Of a stretch of 21,922 nt of DNA, positions 5,537 to 21,480 are shown piece after piece. A program made the position numbers and the translations under genes. The first letter of the stretch is position 1. Every line of letters starts with the position of its first letter. Where the stretch lies: IMG/VR virus record IMGVR_UViG_3300009373_000044, positions 1-21,922 of that record; one strand, written 5' to 3'. The notes beneath the pieces were generated by a model, which was not told where the DNA came from, searched no databases, and worked only from the letters and a program-made list of their open reading frames with translations. The stretch is from a virus.

Positions 5537-6739
5537 ATGCTATACAATTATAATGATGTTTTAGAAAAAACAAAACAGTATTTTGATGGTGATGAGTTAG
5601 CAGCTATAGCTTGGATCAATAAATACGCTTTAAAGGACTCAGATAAAAATATATATGAGCTAACTCCAGATGATATGCACAATAGACTGGCTGATGAAAT
5701 ATCTAGAGTGGAAAATACATATGATAATCCAATAACCAGACAACAAATATATGAATTATTAAAAGACTTTCAATATGTTATTCCACAAGGCGGACCAATG
5801 GCCGGCATAGGAAATAACTATCAGATTACATCCTTATCAAATTGTTTTGTCGTTGGCAGTGATCCACCGGCAGATTCATATGGTGGTATATTAAAAACTG
5901 ACGAACAACAAGTTCAACTGATGAAACGTAGGGGAGGAGTTGGACATGATTTGTCGCACTTAAGACCATCAAATTCATCTGTACAAAATTCAGCATTAAC
6001 GTCAACTGGTGTTACTTCATTTATGGAGAGATATTCTAATTCAACTAGGGAAGTAGCACAAGACGGTCGTCGTGGTGCTTTAATGCTAACACTATCGATA
6101 AAACACCCCGATGTACTTGAATTTATTAAGATTAAATCTAATTTAGATAAAGTTACTGGAGCAAATGTGTCTATAAAATTGACTGATGAATTTTTGAAAT
6201 CGGTTATTGCTGATAAAAAATTTACACATACATTTCCAATTAATGCAACTGGCGATGATATAAAACAGACAAAAGAAGTTAATGCTATTGACTTATGGAA
6301 TCAAATTGTATTTAATGCTTGGAATACTGCTGAACCTGGAATATTATTTTGGGATAAAATTATATCTGAAAGTCCAGCTGATTGTTATAAATCAGATGGA
6401 TTTGAAACAGTGAGCACGAATCCATGTGTTTCGGGCGATACAATAATAACAACCAATATTGGCAAATTGACAGTTAAAGAAATTTTTGAAAGATTTAATA
6501 ATGGTGAAAAATTTATTATTGATTCGTTTAATGTTAAAGAAAACAAACTAGAAAAAGATGAAATAGAGGATATATTATTGACAAAAAGAAATGCGAATAC
6601 TATAGAATTAATTTTAGAAGATAATTCAACACTTGTTTTAACACCAGACCATAAAGTGTTTACTAAAAATAGAGGATGGGTCAATGCGTGCCAGCTTTGT
6701 GAAGAAGATATTTTATTAAAGATTGATGAAAAAAGTTGA
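5537..6739 (+). CDS. nrdJ: NrdJ ribonucleotide reductase N-terminal fragment fused to N-intein 1
   Basis: The first 296 residues are the N-terminal part of a class II (adenosylcobalamin-dependent) ribonucleotide reductase, which makes dNTPs. SNCFVVGS holds a catalytic Cys (about 103), followed by LMKRRGGVGHDLSHLRP. The extein ends ETVSTNP, just before the conserved catalytic NPCSE motif. From Cys297 the sequence is a split-intein N half of 104 residues: CVSGDTIITT (block A) and TPDHKVFTKNRGWV (block B), ending at TGA 6737-6739. AGGAGG (5521-5526) gives a strong ribosome site. The matching C half and the next extein piece start at 7554, after an endonuclease gene. The class II call rests on the C-terminal zinc-binding tail of the last fragment. 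Confidence 0.9.
   Translation: MLYNYNDVLEKTKQYFDGDELAAIAWINKYALKDSDKNIYELTPDDMHNRLADEISRVENTYDNPITRQQIYELLKDFQYVIPQGGPMAGIGNNYQITSLSNCFVVGSDPPADSYGGILKTDEQQVQLMKRRGGVGHDLSHLRPSNSSVQNSALTSTGVTSFMERYSNSTREVAQDGRRGALMLTLSIKHPDVLEFIKIKSNLDKVTGANVSIKLTDEFLKSVIADKKFTHTFPINATGDDIKQTKEVNAIDLWNQIVFNAWNTAEPGILFWDKIISESPADCYKSDGFETVSTNPCVSGDTIITTNIGKLTVKEIFERFNNGEKFIIDSFNVKENKLEKDEIEDILLTKRNANTIELILEDNSTLVLTPDHKVFTKNRGWVNACQLCEEDILLKIDEKS
6425..6736 (+). other. Split intein 1, N-terminal half
   Basis: These 104 codons begin at Cys (TGT 6425-6427), directly after the NP of NPCSE. Block A is CVSGDTIITT and block B is LTPDHKVFT with the expected Thr and His. There is no C-terminal splicing motif before the stop. 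Net charge by count is about -6 (20 acidic, 14 basic), complementary to the basic C half at 7554-7670. Confidence 0.9.
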
Positions 6740-6764
6740 AAAATTTATTTTCGTGATATATATA
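6736..6764 (+). promoter_or_regulatory. Candidate promoter for intein-1 endonuclease gene
   Basis: TTGAAA (6736-6741), a 17-nt spacer and TATATA (6759-6764) lie between the N-intein and the endonuclease gene. The -35 box contains the N-intein stop codon TGA (6737-6739), the same arrangement as at 20180-20207. A possible AT-rich stem (6741-6752 with 6793-6806, 2-nt bulge) would enclose the -10 box and the start codon. In DNA this AT-rich, the call is tentative. Confidence 0.4.
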
Positions 6765-6789
6765 GTATATTAAAGATGGGCACAGATTT

Positions 6790-7557
6790 ATGGAAAATGA
6801 AAATTTAGATGAGTTTAGAAATTTTATATCTGATATATATGAGCAAAAATTTTTTGATGTTAAAGGTAAGGCGCGATTTCATAATATTGAAAAAATTAAA
6901 AATGACAAAAGATATGAAAATTCTAAAAAGATTATTGAAAAATATTATTATGAAAAAGGATTTGGCATAAAATATTTTATAAAATATTTCAAATTGAATG
7001 TTTCTTACCCAGTTCTTAGAAAGTGTTTCTTAAATTTTTTTGAAATAAAATTGAGGAGTTATGAAGAAATAACAGATAATTTACGCAAACTAAGAAGGGA
7101 AAAAATAGAATATGAGAGAGAAAACAATATGGGATGGTTTTCTGAAGAATCAAGAAGAAAGACAAAAATAAGAAATTCTATACAGAGGGGGATCCAAGGT
7201 TATTTTTTTAATGAGAGCAGAAATAAATTCGTTTGGTTAAGAAGTTCTTGGGAATATATTTTTGCAAAATGGCTTAATAAAAATAAATTTGATTGGGACG
7301 TTGAAGTAGAAATGTATAATGTGGGAGGCAAGAAATATAGGCCAGATTTCTTTATATTTGAAAATAGCAAGATAACAAAAATTATAGAAGTTAAAGGCTA
7401 TTGGAAAAATAATAATTGGAAATTTGAAGTATTAGGTGAACAATTAAAAGATAAAAATATAGAATTTATTTTGATAGAAAATATTTTACCCTATTGTTCA
7501 CTTAAATTCAAAGATGAGGTGGAAACTTGGAAACTAGAAAGAAAGGCAGACAAATGA
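6790..7557 (+). CDS. PD-(D/E)XK-type homing endonuclease inside split intein 1
   Basis: This 255-residue protein lies between the two halves of intein 1 and is probably the nuclease that spreads the insertion. The N-terminal two thirds are basic and helical, plausibly for DNA binding. The C-terminal part carries a restriction-like fold: VWLRSSWEYIFAKWL (about 148-162), YRPDF (Asp186) and IIEVKGYW (Glu200, Lys202), giving PD...EXK. The stop overlaps the ATG of the next gene (ATGA, 7554-7557), so the C-intein fragment is probably translated by coupling. No clear ribosome site precedes ATG 6790. It has its own candidate promoter. Nuclease fold is likely; homing role is inferred from its place in a fractured gene. 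Confidence 0.75.
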   Translation: MENENLDEFRNFISDIYEQKFFDVKGKARFHNIEKIKNDKRYENSKKIIEKYYYEKGFGIKYFIKYFKLNVSYPVLRKCFLNFFEIKLRSYEEITDNLRKLRREKIEYERENNMGWFSEESRRKTKIRNSIQRGIQGYFFNESRNKFVWLRSSWEYIFAKWLNKNKFDWDVEVEMYNVGGKKYRPDFFIFENSKITKIIEVKGYWKNNNWKFEVLGEQLKDKNIEFILIENILPYCSLKFKDEVETWKLERKADK

Positions 7558-7670: not shown

Positions 7671-8132
7671 TGTTCAGAAATTCCGTTGTGTATTTTTGAT
7701 TCTTGTCGTCTATTAGCAATAAATTTATATAGTTATGTTTCAAATCCATTTACAAAAAAAGCAAAATTTGATTTTGATTTGTTTAAACAACATATTGGAT
7801 TTGTTACACGTATTATGGACGATATTATTGATTTGGAGCTTGAAAAAATTAAAGTGATTATTACAAAAATAGATAATGATCCAGAACTACCCGAGATTAA
7901 ATTGGTTGAAAAACGCCTATGGGAAAATATTTATCACAAAACATCAGCTGGTCGCAGAACAGGAATTGGAATCACAGCTGAAGGAGACATGTTAGCCGCA
8001 TTGGGTATTCAATATGCTAGTAAAAAGGCCATTGGATTCTCTACACGCGTGCATAAATTATTGGCAATAGAATCATATCGTGAATCAATTAATCTATCAA
8101 AAGAGAGAGGTAGTTTTCAATATGGAATTTAG
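7554..8132 (+). CDS. nrdJ: C-intein 1 fused to NrdJ middle fragment, ends at frameshift
   Basis: The product starts with 39 residues of C-intein 1 (ending FFANDLLVHN), then continues from Cys with CSEIPLCIFDSCRLL, the catalytic NPCSE region of NrdJ, and RRTGIGITAEGDMLAALG. ATG 7554 is chosen over the in-frame TTG 7527 because it forms an ATGA overlap with the endonuclease stop and begins right at the intein fold. After ERGSF (codon ending 8117) the frame runs into TAG 8130-8132. The homologous protein continues in the -1 frame as SIWNLDKEKDNPF. So this gene is truncated by a one-base deletion in a T run, by sequencing error, or is joined to the next frame by -1 slippage. Confidence 0.85.
   Translation: MKVIETKIKKINIHKNETVYDLKVKKNNNFFANDLLVHNCSEIPLCIFDSCRLLAINLYSYVSNPFTKKAKFDFDLFKQHIGFVTRIMDDIIDLELEKIKVIITKIDNDPELPEIKLVEKRLWENIYHKTSAGRRTGIGITAEGDMLAALGIQYASKKAIGFSTRVHKLLAIESYRESINLSKERGSFQYGI
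8111..8120 (+). other. Apparent -1 frameshift site in nrdJ
   Basis: The frame reads GGT AGT TTT CAA and then stops at 8130. Re-reading one base back from the T run at 8114-8117 gives TTT TCA ATA TGG AAT, the expected FSIWN. The -1 frame is closed by TAG at 8111-8113, so the shift must happen between 8114 and 8132. One extra T would restore a single frame. Confidence 0.75.
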
Positions 8133-8599
8133 ATAAAGAAAAAGATAATCCATTTATTAAAAGAATAATGGAAGCTGAACCTGATTTATTGGATGATTAC
8201 AAAAAATATGGTAGACGAAATATATCAATGTTAACTGTCGCGCCGACTGGGTGTTTAGTTGATTCAACTAAAATTAAAACAGATCACGGATATATAACAT
8301 TGGCAGAATTATTTTTGGTTAATGGATATGATCTGGAGAGACTTAGGGGACTACGAGATATGTGGATAGAACCAACCCAGGATATATATGTGTATAATAT
8401 ATTTGGTGAGAAGAATAGAATCACGAAATTATATTGGGCGGGTGAATATAACACGAAAAGAATTAGATTGAGCGATGATAATTTGTTGGAGTCAACCATG
8501 AATCATAAATTTTTAGTTAAACTAAATAATAAAGAAGCAATATGGAAGAAGGCAGTTGATTTACGGGTTGGTGATATTATTATTAAGAAAATTGAATAA
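8117..8599 (+). CDS. nrdJ: NrdJ middle fragment (after frameshift) fused to N-intein 2
   Basis: In the -1 frame the reductase continues as SIWNLDKEKDNPFIKRI, KKYGRRNISMLTVAPTG, up to the conserved APTG/TVS site. From Cys (8252) the sequence changes to a second split-intein N half of 115 residues, ending at TAA 8597-8599. If read alone, the first ATG is 8168, without a ribosome site, which argues that this is the continuation of the preceding frame rather than a separate gene. With the frame corrected, the middle polypeptide is C-intein 1, about 194 extein residues, N-intein 2: a piece that must be spliced at both ends. Confidence 0.85.
   Translation, partial: SIWNLDKEKDNPFIKRIMEAEPDLLDDYKKYGRRNISMLTVAPTGCLVDSTKIKTDHGYITLAELFLVNGYDLERLRGLRDMWIEPTQDIYVYNIFGEKNRITKLYWAGEYNTKRIRLSDDNLLESTMNHKFLVKLNNKEAIWKKAVDLRVGDIIIKKIE
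8252..8596 (+). other. Split intein 2, N-terminal half
   Basis: These 115 codons start at Cys right after APTG. Block A is CLVDSTKIKTDHGYITLAEL; a block B-like segment STMNHKFLVKL carries His. The half is slightly basic (about +2), while its C half is strongly acidic (about -12), the opposite polarity to inteins 1 and 3. Confidence 0.88.
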
Positions 8600-8603
8600 A
8601 TAT

Positions 8604-8636
8604 TTGATATTTTTACTATTGCTCTATACTTATACT
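8604..8636 (+). promoter_or_regulatory. Candidate promoter for intein-2 endonuclease gene
   Basis: TTGATA (8604-8609) is followed 15 nt later by TATACT (8625-8630) and at once by a second TATACT (8631-8636). Spacing to the -35 is not ideal for either (15 or 21 nt), so confidence is modest. The -10 boxes lie in the loop of the hairpin 8615-8662, so a transcript started here would lack its left arm. Confidence 0.35.
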
Positions 8637-8662
8637 AAAGGAACATAAATAGGAGCAATAGT
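8615..8662 (+). promoter_or_regulatory. Hairpin sequestering ribosome site and GTG start of endonuclease
   Basis: ACTATTGCTC (8615-8624) is the exact reverse complement of GAGCAATAGT (8653-8662), with a 28-nt loop. The right arm covers three bases of the AGGAG ribosome site (8651-8655) and the first two bases of the GTG start (8661). In mRNA read through from nrdJ this should block translation of the endonuclease. Confidence 0.75.
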
Positions 8663-9785
8663 GAGAAATATAAAAAAAATATCGTATTTGGAAAAATATA
8701 ACAAACTAGTTGAAGAACATGGACCAATAGAGGGAATGAATCAATATTACCGATTTATTAGGGGGGTGTCATTAGAAAAATATATATTGAAATATGGTGA
8801 AATAGATGGTAAGAAAAAATACGACGAATGGAAAGATATACAAAAGAATTCGGGGGTTTCTTTGGATAAAATGATTAAAAAATATGGTGAAATAGATGGT
8901 AAGAAAAAATATGAGAATTGGAAACAAGATACTAGACAAGATTTAAACGCGTTTATAAAAAGATATGGCCGCATTAGTGGTGAAGAAAAATATAATGAAT
9001 TTAAAAGAAAATCATTGGCCGCATTATCTAAAGTGGATCAATCAAAAAAGAAGTCAATTAGAAAATTAAATTATTGGATGGATGTTACTAACGGTGATGT
9101 TCAACTTGCAAAAAGAAAATTATCCGAATATCAAAATACAGCAAGTTTAGATAAATTTATAAATAAATATGGGGATGTAGATGGTAAAAGACGGTATTTG
9201 GAAACAAATGCAAAAAGAGGAACGACACTACGAACAATGATCGAAAAATATGGTGAAGTAGAAGGTAAAGAAAAATACGAGATTTGGAGGAATACCAATA
9301 AGCACTTGAAAGAGGATTGGATAAAAAAATATGGTGAAGTAGACGGTAATAGGAGATATCTAGAATTAACAAAAAAGAAAATAGAAAGAACCAAAAGATA
9401 TTCTGATATTGGTTTGGAATTCTGTGAAGAAATATATAAGAAACTTTGTCATAAATATAGCAATTTTTATTACGGGGAATCAGAATATATGTTTTTTATA
9501 TTTGAAGATGATGTAAGGATAATAGTCCCAGATATGTATATAAAAGATATAAATTTGGTTATCGAATTTTATGGTGATTTCTGGCATAAAAATCCATTAA
9601 TATATGATATTTCGCAAGAATTTGTAAAAGAAACATGGGAACGAGACGAAAAACGGATCTCCATACTAGAAAAGAAAATAAATTCCAATGTAATAATAGT
9701 GTGGGAATATGATTATCGCAAAGATCCGGATGGTGTAATAAATAAAATAGTGGATGAAATAATTATGAATTATGGAAAAGATTAA
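8661..9785 (+). CDS. Vsr-like homing endonuclease with tandem KYGE-x-GK repeats
   Basis: This 374-residue protein starts at GTG 8661, with AGGAG at 8651-8655. Residues about 14-235 hold six to seven copies of a roughly 29-residue unit, consensus SLxKxIxKYGExDGKxKYExW, probably DNA-binding. The C-terminal domain resembles Vsr patch-repair nuclease: VPDMYIKDINLVIEFYGDFW then His309, followed by WERDEKRISILEK and VIIVWEYDYR. Key residues by position are Asp291, Glu302, Asp306 and His309. Vsr-like (EDxHD) nucleases were described as the endonuclease class of fractured phage genes with split inteins (Dassa et al. 2009). The 3' end overlaps the C-intein gene by 14 nt. Nuclease class is well supported; activity is inferred. 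Confidence 0.82.
   Translation: MRNIKKISYLEKYNKLVEEHGPIEGMNQYYRFIRGVSLEKYILKYGEIDGKKKYDEWKDIQKNSGVSLDKMIKKYGEIDGKKKYENWKQDTRQDLNAFIKRYGRISGEEKYNEFKRKSLAALSKVDQSKKKSIRKLNYWMDVTNGDVQLAKRKLSEYQNTASLDKFINKYGDVDGKRRYLETNAKRGTTLRTMIEKYGEVEGKEKYEIWRNTNKHLKEDWIKKYGEVDGNRRYLELTKKKIERTKRYSDIGLEFCEEIYKKLCHKYSNFYYGESEYMFFIFEDDVRIIVPDMYIKDINLVIEFYGDFWHKNPLIYDISQEFVKETWERDEKRISILEKKINSNVIIVWEYDYRKDPDGVINKIVDEIIMNYGKD
8790..8911 (+). repeat. Exact 32-bp direct repeat inside endonuclease gene
   Basis: Positions 8790-8821 and 8880-8911 are identical and lie 90 nt (30 codons) apart. They encode KYGEIDGKKKY twice. Other repeat units in the gene match only at protein level, so these two copies are a recent duplication or conversion. 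Confidence 0.9.
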
Positions 9786-9912
9786 TATAGAGAATATACA
9801 ATATGAAGAATTAACTGTGATTAGTGTAGATGATAATGTTGCTGAAACAATGGATATTGAAGTTGAGAACGATCATTATTATGAACTAGATGGTGGGATA
9901 TATTCGCACAAT
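9772..9912 (+). other. Split intein 2, C-terminal half
   Basis: These 47 codons show block F (ETMDIEVENDHYYELDGG) and block G (IYSHN), followed by Thr as the +1 nucleophile. Composition is strongly acidic (13 acidic, 1 basic), unlike most split C-inteins, and complementary to a slightly basic N half. Confidence 0.88.
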
Positions 9913-10923
9913 ACTGTATCATTATTAACACAAACCACATCGGGCATTGAACCGTTATTTATGCCATATTATAAAAGAAATAAAAAAATTAATTCAAATG
10001 ATGTTGATGCAAAGGTACATCATACGGATGCTTCGGGTGATAGTTGGGAACAATATAATGTATTTCATCCAAAACTAAAACACTGGATGGAATTGATGGG
10101 GCATACTAATATTGAGGATAAAATAGATGATGAGTTAAATAATATATTTGAAAAATCTCCATACTTTGGATCAACTGCAAATGACATTAATTGGTTGGAT
10201 AAAGTTAAAATGCAAGGTGAAATACAAAAGTGGGTCGACCATTCAATATCAGTAACAGTTAATTTACCAAATACAGCAACAGAAGAATTAATATCAGATA
10301 TATTTAAGCAGTCTTGGAAATCAGGCTGCAAGGGCATTACAGTATATCGCGATGGTTGTCGTGCCGGTGTTTTGATATCAAATAACGATTTAGATAGAAA
10401 TGGGACTAAAATCCAACATAACTCAGCACCAAAACGTCCAAAAATACTTGATTGTGATATACACCAAATAACAGCTCTTGGTAAAAAATGGGTTGTATTG
10501 GTTGGTTTATTAGAAGGAGATCCATATGAAGTTTTTGCATTCAAACAAGATAAAATAACTATATCACCAAAATTTACAAAAGGATTATTAACACGACATA
10601 AGAGCGGCCATTATAAACTAGAAATACCAGACACAATAGAATTCAATGATATTACAAATTTGTTTGAACGTGATGAGCAAGAATCTCTCACTAGAATTTT
10701 ATCATGGGGATTACGACACGGCGGCGGCGTTAAATATGCAATGGAACAACTGAATAAATCGGGTGAATCAATAGCATCATTTAGTAAAGCTATTTCACGA
10801 ACATTGAAAAAATATATTAATGACGGTGATAAATCTAGTGTGCTATGTCCTGAGTGTGGCGGTGAAATGATATATCAAGAGGGATGCATACGCTGCAAAT
10901 CTTGTTCGTGGAGTAAATGTTAA
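9772..10923 (+). CDS. nrdJ: C-intein 2 fused to NrdJ C-terminal fragment
   Basis: The first 47 residues are C-intein 2 (ending GGIYSHN). The reductase then resumes at Thr with TVSLLTQTTSGIEPLF, completing the APTG-TVS motif. The C-terminus carries four Cys pairs or singles (CPECGGEMIYQEGC and CKSCSWSKC), the zinc-binding tail typical of B12-dependent NrdJ. After both splicings and frame correction the enzyme would be about 826 residues. The ATG at 9772 lies 14 nt inside the endonuclease gene, which suggests translational coupling. The gene ends 4 nt before the next. Confidence 0.9.
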   Translation: MEKINIENIQYEELTVISVDDNVAETMDIEVENDHYYELDGGIYSHNTVSLLTQTTSGIEPLFMPYYKRNKKINSNDVDAKVHHTDASGDSWEQYNVFHPKLKHWMELMGHTNIEDKIDDELNNIFEKSPYFGSTANDINWLDKVKMQGEIQKWVDHSISVTVNLPNTATEELISDIFKQSWKSGCKGITVYRDGCRAGVLISNNDLDRNGTKIQHNSAPKRPKILDCDIHQITALGKKWVVLVGLLEGDPYEVFAFKQDKITISPKFTKGLLTRHKSGHYKLEIPDTIEFNDITNLFERDEQESLTRILSWGLRHGGGVKYAMEQLNKSGESIASFSKAISRTLKKYINDGDKSSVLCPECGGEMIYQEGCIRCKSCSWSKC

Positions 10924-19934: not shown

Positions 19935-20183
19935 ATGATTGACAAAAATAAAGAACATTTTTTCTGGAATGAGCGGTACCGCCCCCAAAATTTAGATGAT
20001 TATGTGGGCAATGAAGCATTAATACAGAGCGTCAAAATATGGATAGAAAGTGGCGAAATCCCAAATCTATTATTATATGGGAAAGCTGGGACGGGCAAAT
20101 GTTTGGATTATTCTGAGTATATTGATATTGAGATGGAAGTATCTGATGATGAATATAAGATACTAAAACAATATGAAATTTGA
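19935..20183 (+). CDS. 44: gp44-like clamp loader N-terminal fragment fused to short N-intein 3
   Basis: The first 55 residues are the start of an AAA+ clamp-loader ATPase: FWNERYRPQNLDDYVGNEAL is the family's opening box, and LLLYGKAGTGK is the Walker A motif up to its Lys. Then Cys (20100) opens a 27-residue N-intein that ends at TGA 20181-20183. The Walker A Thr and the rest of the protein come from the gene at 20305. Neither fragment can bind ATP alone, so loader activity depends on trans-splicing. No strong ribosome site precedes the ATG. Confidence 0.88.
   Translation: MIDKNKEHFFWNERYRPQNLDDYVGNEALIQSVKIWIESGEIPNLLLYGKAGTGKCLDYSEYIDIEMEVSDDEYKILKQYEI
20100..20180 (+). other. Atypical split intein 3, short N-terminal half (27 aa)
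   Basis: The half contains only the block A region (CLDYSEYIDIEMEV), then an acidic stretch. Block B is in the C half instead. Splits between blocks A and B with a very short N half are known from environmental phage inteins such as AceL-TerL and the VidaL group. Net charge is about -7 against +4 for the C half. Confidence 0.85.
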
Positions 20184-20207: not shown

Positions 20208-20321
20208 AATTTAATATTCTTATGCCATTCGTGTCATGCTAGAACCGCAAACTCGCATGATGATGGTTGGATTGATTATTATGTAAATAAAAATAAACAG
20301 TTTTATGAAAAAGAAATTTAG
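20196..20321 (+). pseudogene. 3' remnant of an HNH homing endonuclease gene
   Basis: The frame of 20196-20321 encodes KTYTNLIFLCHSCHARTANS, then HDDGWIDYYVNKNKQFYEKE and Ile before TAG 20319-20321. NLIxLCxxCHxRT is the end of an HNH nuclease domain, including its second CxxC and the following His. The frame has a stop at 20193-20195 and no start codon, so only about 41 codons remain and the protein cannot be made. It overlaps the C-intein start (20305) by 17 nt, the way the intact endonuclease gene in intein 2 overlaps its C-intein gene. Confidence 0.8.
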
Positions 20322-20694
20322 GTTACCAGTTGGAGAACTTTTTAAGTTTTTTAATTTATTGGATATTGATGATAATGATACTGTTGATATTAATAGATAT
20401 TTAGCTATTAAAAATCAATATAATAAATATAAACGTATTAATTCTTTAATAAAAAAACAGGGTCAAGTAAATATATATAAATTTGAAGATGATATAAATA
20501 TTAAATGTGATGAAAAACATTTAGTTAGATGTAATAATAGATTTATATGTATAAAAGATGCCGATACAGTTGATACAATATATGGAAATAAAAAAAAGAT
20601 GGGGGCAATATCAGGAACTATTAAAGATGTTTATGATTTTTCAATAGATAGTCCACACGAATATATAACATCTAATGGTGTTATTTGCCACAAT
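20305..20694 (+). other. Atypical split intein 3, long C-terminal half (130 aa)
   Basis: A basic start (MKKKFRLPVGELFKFF) is followed by block B (INIKCDEKHLVRC, with Cys where Thr is usual), block F (VYDFSIDSPHEYIT) and block G (GVICHN) before Thr +1 of the extein. Cys before the terminal His-Asn is unusual but seen in some inteins. Confidence 0.85.
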
Positions 20695-21480
20695 ACATCT
20701 TTAGCAAAATTATTGGTTAAGAATATAGATTGTGATTTCATGTATGTTAATGCCAGTGATAAAGGTAATATTGATTTTCTTAGAAACGAAATCATACCAT
20801 TCGCAACATCAATTGGATTTAAGGATCGTAAAATTATAATTCTTGATGAAGCGGATTATTTATCATTTGGTGGAATGGGTGGTTCTCAACAAGCACTTAG
20901 AAATACAATGGAAGCATCATCTAGAAATACAAGATTTATTTTAACTTGTAATTATGTTGAAAAAATAATTGATCCAATCAAAAGTCGTTGCGATGTATAC
21001 CATATAACACCACCATCCAGGAAAGAGGTCGCTGTATTATTAACTAAAATTCTTAATAAAGAGCAAGTGGAATATGATGTATCTGATTTAGCAGTAGTTG
21101 TTAATTCAACATATCCGGATATGAGGAGAGCTATTAATTTGATTCAACGACAATCCATTAATGGTAAACTTAAGATTAGCAAACAATCAATTATTGAATC
21201 AAATTATATGCTAAAAATAGCAGAAGAACTAAAATCCAATAAAGAACCAAAAGAAAAATTCAAATCAATACGTAAAATAATATCAGATAGTAAAGTAAGA
21301 GATTTCGAAGATTTATATAGATTTCTATTTGATAATGTAGATGACTATGCAAAAGGAAATATAGCATCTGTTATATTAGAAATAGCCGAGACTCAGTTTC
21401 AGTCGACTTTCGTGGTGGATAAAGAAATTGCGGTAACAAGCTTATTGGTGAAATTAATTAGGACCATAAATGAAAAATAA
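20305..21480 (+). CDS. 44: C-intein 3 fused to gp44-like clamp loader C-terminal fragment
   Basis: The first 130 residues are C-intein 3; the clamp loader resumes at Thr of Walker A (TSLAKLLVKNI). Further AAA+ motifs are Walker B IIILDEADYL, sensor 1 FILTCNYVEK and the arginine-finger region IKSRCD, then helical lid and collar domains. Joined exteins total 316 residues, close to T4 gp44 (319). The complex loads the gp45-like clamp. The ATG at 20305 has no visible ribosome site and lies inside the HNH remnant, suggesting that translation once depended on the lost endonuclease gene. Confidence 0.88.
   Translation: MKKKFRLPVGELFKFFNLLDIDDNDTVDINRYLAIKNQYNKYKRINSLIKKQGQVNIYKFEDDINIKCDEKHLVRCNNRFICIKDADTVDTIYGNKKKMGAISGTIKDVYDFSIDSPHEYITSNGVICHNTSLAKLLVKNIDCDFMYVNASDKGNIDFLRNEIIPFATSIGFKDRKIIILDEADYLSFGGMGGSQQALRNTMEASSRNTRFILTCNYVEKIIDPIKSRCDVYHITPPSRKEVAVLLTKILNKEQVEYDVSDLAVVVNSTYPDMRRAINLIQRQSINGKLKISKQSIIESNYMLKIAEELKSNKEPKEKFKSIRKIISDSKVRDFEDLYRFLFDNVDDYAKGNIASVILEIAETQFQSTFVVDKEIAVTSLLVKLIRTINEK

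Follow-up and report, generated by a model that had tools for sequence, protein, structure and literature searches.

A start-site hairpin with a late-type promoter motif in its loop suggests I-TevI-like late translation of a split-intein endonuclease in a T4-like phage

For the homing endonucleases I-TevI, I-TevII and I-TevIII of the T4 group I introns, a stable RNA helix hides the ribosome-binding site in early and middle read-through RNA, and in the I-TevI type a late promoter just 5' of the gene yields an RNA that lacks the 5' arm of this helix (PMC2988022). A hairpin also sequesters the ribosome site of the endonucleases SegB of T4 and MobE of Aeromonas phage Aeh1 (PMC2988022). Among ordinary late genes of T4, the lysozyme gene e and soc, which are carried on long early RNA, are silenced by RNA structure at their start sites, and for gene e late promoters give RNA without the 5' strand (PMC3014915). 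The regulatory principle is already known from these systems. Here we describe an endonuclease gene lying inside a split intein for which comparative evidence gives good support to late-only translation of the I-TevI kind, with start site, repression and timing all predicted.

The window, that is, the whole 21,922-nt stretch of DNA analysed, is a piece of the genome of a T4-like phage, in which uvsX, RNase H, a gp41-type helicase, nrdJ and a family B DNA polymerase follow each other in this order on one strand. Two IMG/VR contigs match it at 99.98% over the 9.1-kb stretch compared, one of which is its 75-kb parent contig (G001). Two split inteins divide NrdJ into three frames, and each gap holds one endonuclease gene. 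An NrdJ-N::IntN1 frame (5537-6739) is followed by endonuclease 1 (6790-7557), by an IntC1::NrdJ-middle::IntN2 frame on the + strand with its true start at about 7554 and its end at 8599, by the gene of endonuclease 2 (8661-9785, + strand, 374 aa), and by IntC2 fused to the C-terminal piece of NrdJ (9772-10923, + strand), which overlaps the end of the endonuclease 2 gene. The end of the middle NrdJ piece fused to IntN2 occupies 8168-8599 (+ strand), with a match to Intein_splicing (PF14890) at 8168-8596 that stays under the curated cut-off, and the TAA stop codon of this frame (8597-8599, + strand) lies just 5' of the hairpin described below. Host frames that end in IntN or start with IntC, with an endonuclease frame between them, form a fractured-gene layout. 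Genes fractured by split inteins and carrying endonucleases of the EDxHD type were reportedly described by Dassa et al. 2009 (NAR 37:2560), in the order IntN / endonuclease / IntC, and gene layout and nuclease type are the same here.

Three further features of the window concern its assembly and its other coding frames. At about 8113 it is one T short in a TTTTT run that is present in both IMG/VR copies (L001 and L002); the missing T, which is probably an assembly or sequencing error, breaks the NrdJ-middle frame with a stop at 8132. The start of IntC2::NrdJ-C at 9772, inside the end of endonuclease 2, has no evident Shine-Dalgarno sequence. A 21-nt perfect inverted repeat (3-23/54-74) at the very start of the window is possibly a contig-end artefact.

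Endonuclease 2 is predicted to be an EDxHD/Vsr-like nuclease, with a KYGE repeat domain preceding a C-terminal Vsr/EDxHD-type nuclease domain. A Pfam search assigned it no family, and the link to Vsr comes from profile and fold searches: a profile of seven sequences reaches the Vsr structures 1odg, 1vsr and 1cw0 (E 0.004-0.005), and a Foldseek search with the AlphaFold model (mean pLDDT 74.8) finds Vsr and the catalytic domain of I-Bth0305I (3r3p) with probabilities of 0.98-1.00 and weak E-values. The GTG start (window MRNIKKISYLEKY) aligns with the ATG of an ortholog (L031/L053, MKKIKKISYPNKY), which argues that GTG is the true start of the gene. Endonuclease 1 (6790) belongs to a different nuclease family and is PD-(D/E)XK-like.

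The locus differs from I-TevI, I-TevII and I-TevIII in both partners. The host element of I-TevI is a self-splicing RNA and here it is a split intein; the nucleases I-TevI, I-TevII and I-TevIII are of the GIY-YIG or HNH families and here the enzyme is Vsr/EDxHD-like. As with MobE, the endonuclease gene lies within or next to genes for ribonucleotide reductase. The free-standing MobE, however, breaks the nrdA gene of Aeh1 into pieces that work without splicing, whereas the pieces here carry split-intein halves, and the nuclease family of MobE and SegB is not that of the endonuclease in the window. Unlike gene e and soc, which are ordinary late genes, the gene controlled here encodes a mobile endonuclease.

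Between the IntN2 stop and endonuclease 2, a left (5') arm TTTTTACTATTGCTC (8610-8624, + strand) faces a right (3') arm GAGCAATAGTGAGAA (8653-8667, + strand), the two full arms pairing at 87% over 15 nt around an inner core, ACTATTGCTC/GAGCAATAGT (8615-8624/8653-8662), that is a perfect 10-bp stem. With the AGGAG Shine-Dalgarno sequence at 8651-8655 (+ strand) and the GTG start codon at 8661-8663, the right arm covers part of both, and the stem core takes the GAG of the Shine-Dalgarno (three of its five bases) and the GT of the start. The loop holds TATACTTATACT at 8625-8636, and a candidate late promoter box, TATACTTATA, forms together with a downstream CTAAAG the sequence TATACTTATACTAAAG (8625-8640, + strand). 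The segment has a minimum free energy of -18.9 kcal/mol; the mean of its shuffles is -6.9 (z -5.11), and 0 of 200 shuffles are equally stable. In an Rfam search the hairpin fell into no family. The first-pass annotation had placed a perfect 10-bp stem over part of AGGAG and GTG, with promoter boxes in the loop, and sequence and folding both confirm this; the 10 bp are right for the core but not for the full extent of the stem, as the arms reach 15 nt.

According to the folding models, the state of the start site depends on where the RNA begins. In the read-through RNA the unpaired probability is 0.15 at the Shine-Dalgarno and 0.04 at the start, and in RNA beginning at 8641-8645 it rises to about 0.67-0.70 and 0.63-0.66, respectively. 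Across 17 box-containing hairpin loci, the start region is on average unpaired at 0.20 in read-through and 0.66 in loop-started RNA. The same annotation had suggested that read-through RNA hides the endonuclease start and loop-started RNA exposes it, by analogy with I-TevI; the predicted values (0.04 against 0.66) agree with the former, and the analogy is apt (PMC2988022, PMC3014915). As in the T4 type of control, there is a predicted sequestering helix, this helix is kept in relatives, and, at the level of motifs, a late motif is placed such that RNA started from it would be without the 5' arm. We consider it very probable that the hairpin silences read-through RNA and that a late promoter in the loop frees the endonuclease start late, as a timing switch. 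Early and middle mRNA running on from the upstream nrdJ piece would fold the 8610-8624/8653-8667 hairpin, which would mask the Shine-Dalgarno and the GTG, so that the NrdJ pieces would be translated and the endonuclease hardly at all. Once infection is in its late phase, the late RNA polymerase of the phage would initiate at the loop box, and as RNA begun in the loop is without the left arm, the start would be free and the endonuclease would be made.

Judged by its distribution, TATAYTTATA(CTAAAG) is the resident phage's own late-type promoter motif, and the idea that the loop holds a real promoter motif is borne out by its recurrence before virion genes of the same contig. The top 9-mer of upstream intergenic DNA in the 75-kb contig is ATATTTATA (six occurrences, 0.36 expected), TATATTTATA has seven occurrences on the coding strand and none on the opposite one, and TATAYTTATA sites, several of them followed by CTAAAG, lie 16-35 nt upstream of genes that include those of the head-tail connector and the tail tube. 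Since the sequence is AT-rich, single near-matches to TATAYTTATA are cheap: at 9/10 or better the contig has 41 sites on the + strand and 51 on the - strand. Across the relatives, a box matching at 9/10 or better is present in 26 of 53 intein-endonuclease gaps, where dinucleotide shuffles predict 4.3, and in 12 of 58 control gaps (Fisher p 0.0015); the loops of three NrdJ-site orthologs (L053, L054 and L056) are without a 9/10 match. Transcription is predicted to start at about 8640-8645. The T4 gp55-type late promoter, I-TevI's among them, has the box TATAAATA, and TATACTTATA represents another consensus that likewise stands before virion genes. A sigma-70 promoter in the loop was considered and rejected, with 47 regional sites found against 44.8 expected and no + strand site that has its -10 element in the loop.

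Relatives were gathered by protein and profile scans of IMG/VR and from phage records. In seven of seven NrdJ-site orthologs (L053, L054, L055, L056, L057, L059 and L064), whose endonucleases are 36-55% identical to that of the window, a hairpin lies in the gap that separates the IntN stop from the start of the endonuclease gene, and its sequence differs among them, with altered right arms such as GCAATAG, GCTATTG, GCTTTAG and GCGTTAG; in L059 it is located upstream of the best ATG. By the first-pass annotation's own criterion, a stem without compensatory changes would have refuted the proposal; left and right arms have in fact changed together. At NrdJ sites the duplex of a locus's own arms reaches -17.2 kcal/mol and that of swapped arms -9.1 (permutation p 2e-4); the corresponding values are -19.5 and -8.6 for ten loci mostly at non-NrdJ sites (p 5e-5), and -11.0 and -5.8 for all 53 intein junctions (p 5e-5). 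When entire hairpin regions were aligned with MAFFT, the arms fell out of register, and a 10-pair core registered by hand, from which a 2-nt bulge of L057 was omitted, was used instead. In this core 94.3% of cells are paired, six of the ten pairs show double changes, and the covariation score of 0.548 (0.198 when shuffled) is reached in 0 of 500 shuffles.

Endonuclease junctions are also more structured than control gaps, which were taken from between other gene pairs of these loci. The median z is -1.8 at 60 endonuclease junctions and +0.26 at 68 controls (p 3e-8), and z falls below -3 at 23 of the former and five of the latter. Three of these five structured controls, their sequences read by eye, resemble homing endonucleases of other families in the same layout; L207:2526, L145:6011 and L181:4766 are likely zinc-finger type, PD-(D/E)XK and GIY-YIG endonucleases, respectively, with the same hairpin and a TATAYTTATA-like loop. 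The hairpin is not universal, as z is below -2.4 at 28 of 53 intein junctions with IntN, and several helicase-site relatives keep the box and lack a strong hairpin. A hairpin at every endonuclease junction is ruled out by the weak fold at 6790 and in about half of the relatives. In the window itself, the gap before endonuclease 1 (6739-6790) has this weak fold only, together with a late-box match of 8/10 (GATATATATA).

The distance between stop codon and hairpin bears on translational coupling, by which ribosomes ending the IntN frame would melt the hairpin and support a low, nrdJ-tied level of endonuclease, with an internal promoter unneeded. The left arm does start near the IntN stop in several relatives (at -2 in L054 and L057, and at +13 in the window), but the distance lies anywhere between -2 and +35 nt, and for relatives at the helicase site it is mostly 16-35 nt, beyond the reach of a terminating ribosome, so that melting of this kind cannot be the general rule. 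Coupling would moreover leave the resident phage's late box in the loop unexplained, and we regard it as improbable; the likely mechanism is that of the T4 I-TevI type.

A second phage allows the content of the loop to be compared with a different set of promoters. LR756500 is a 462-kb jumbo phage of 24% G+C with an endonuclease 43% identical to that of the window, and it has two classes of upstream motif (seen at L210-L229), an early-type AACTTTnTTATTATATTTAC and a late-type [AG]ATATATAA[AT]AT. The AACTTT-n-TTATTATATTTAC class stands before NAD synthetase, an ATPase/loader-like protein and many small genes, and the [AG]ATATATAA[AT]AT class before tail sheath, head protease, major head and baseplate genes. 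The loop of the LR756500 endonuclease hairpin carries AATATATAAAATA, which belongs to the late class and not to the TTATTATATTTAC class; thus, each of the two phages has its own late box in the loop. The same genome speaks to the idea that the hairpin is a mere by-product of late promoters, whose T-rich upstream tract would pair with the purine-rich ribosome site without any regulatory role. Such a pairing exists in the contig of the window, where the head-tail connector gene has a T-tract that pairs with AAAGAGGAAA. However, among 27 late-box genes of LR756500 the median z is -2.75 for the eight nuclease genes and +0.42 for the 19 others (p 5e-6), and compensatory changes maintain the stems in sequence outside the box, which makes a by-product very unlikely. 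LR756500 also encodes, at 39887-41179 (L211-L212), an endonuclease belonging to the same PHROG (22677) whose ATG is enclosed by a stem of about 27 bp (z -10.3) that contains the late box AATATATAAAAT.

That the hairpin is instead a terminator or an RNA-processing site, ending or cutting the nrdJ transcript and lowering endonuclease expression, would suit its place in a short gap past the IntN stop codon, but we give this hardly any credence, since no T run follows the stem (the next sequence is ATATAAAAAAAATATC), the hairpin is absent from the terminator scan list, and the element with a constant position is the right arm, at the ribosome site and start codon, not the left arm at the stop. An intrinsic terminator was rejected, as it requires a stem followed by a T run and there is no U tract. 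An I-TevI-like operator, with the hairpin region resembling the homing site, was rejected as well, the similarity to the joined intein flanks being 9.0 against 8.9 for shuffled sequence.

The timing switch proposed for this locus extends a known mechanism, that of I-TevI and MobE, beyond T4 introns and free-standing genes: the endonucleases concerned are EDxHD/Vsr-like and sit inside split inteins, several nuclease families are involved, and the late boxes are phage-specific. In the searchable literature, which does not include Dassa et al. 2009, we found no description of a hairpin and late promoter for split-intein endonucleases, which is not proof of absence. As the host is a split intein and not a self-splicing RNA, the protection of RNA splicing, the rationale given for I-TevI, cannot apply; this points to late timing itself as the shared reason, be it homing while genome copies abound or sparing the expression of the host gene. 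Testable late-promoter predictions are gained for two lineages of uncultured phages. More tentatively, and at slightly less than an even chance, endonucleases of several families (Vsr/EDxHD, GIY-YIG, PD-(D/E)XK and zinc-finger type) in distantly related phages may repeatedly have evolved the same portable timing device by wrapping their start around the resident late promoter, a reading that includes a stem evolving freely and a loop adopting the local late box. If it holds, such loops could reveal the late promoters of uncultured phages.

Other interrupted replication genes came up alongside these loci. The clamp-loader (gp44) gene of the window (19935-20183 and 20305-21480) is interrupted by an intein that is apparently split very near its N end, the first piece holding about 27 of its residues, with a 121-nt gap that lacks an endonuclease frame. 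In the Lak phages L013 and L014, endonucleases lie in broken DNA polymerase genes, in frames that are open only when TAG is read as a residue. In Desulfovibrio phage 7757 (L019:2597-2750), where a polymerase gene is broken, a very long stem of about 23 bp surrounds a GTG of the endonuclease frame.
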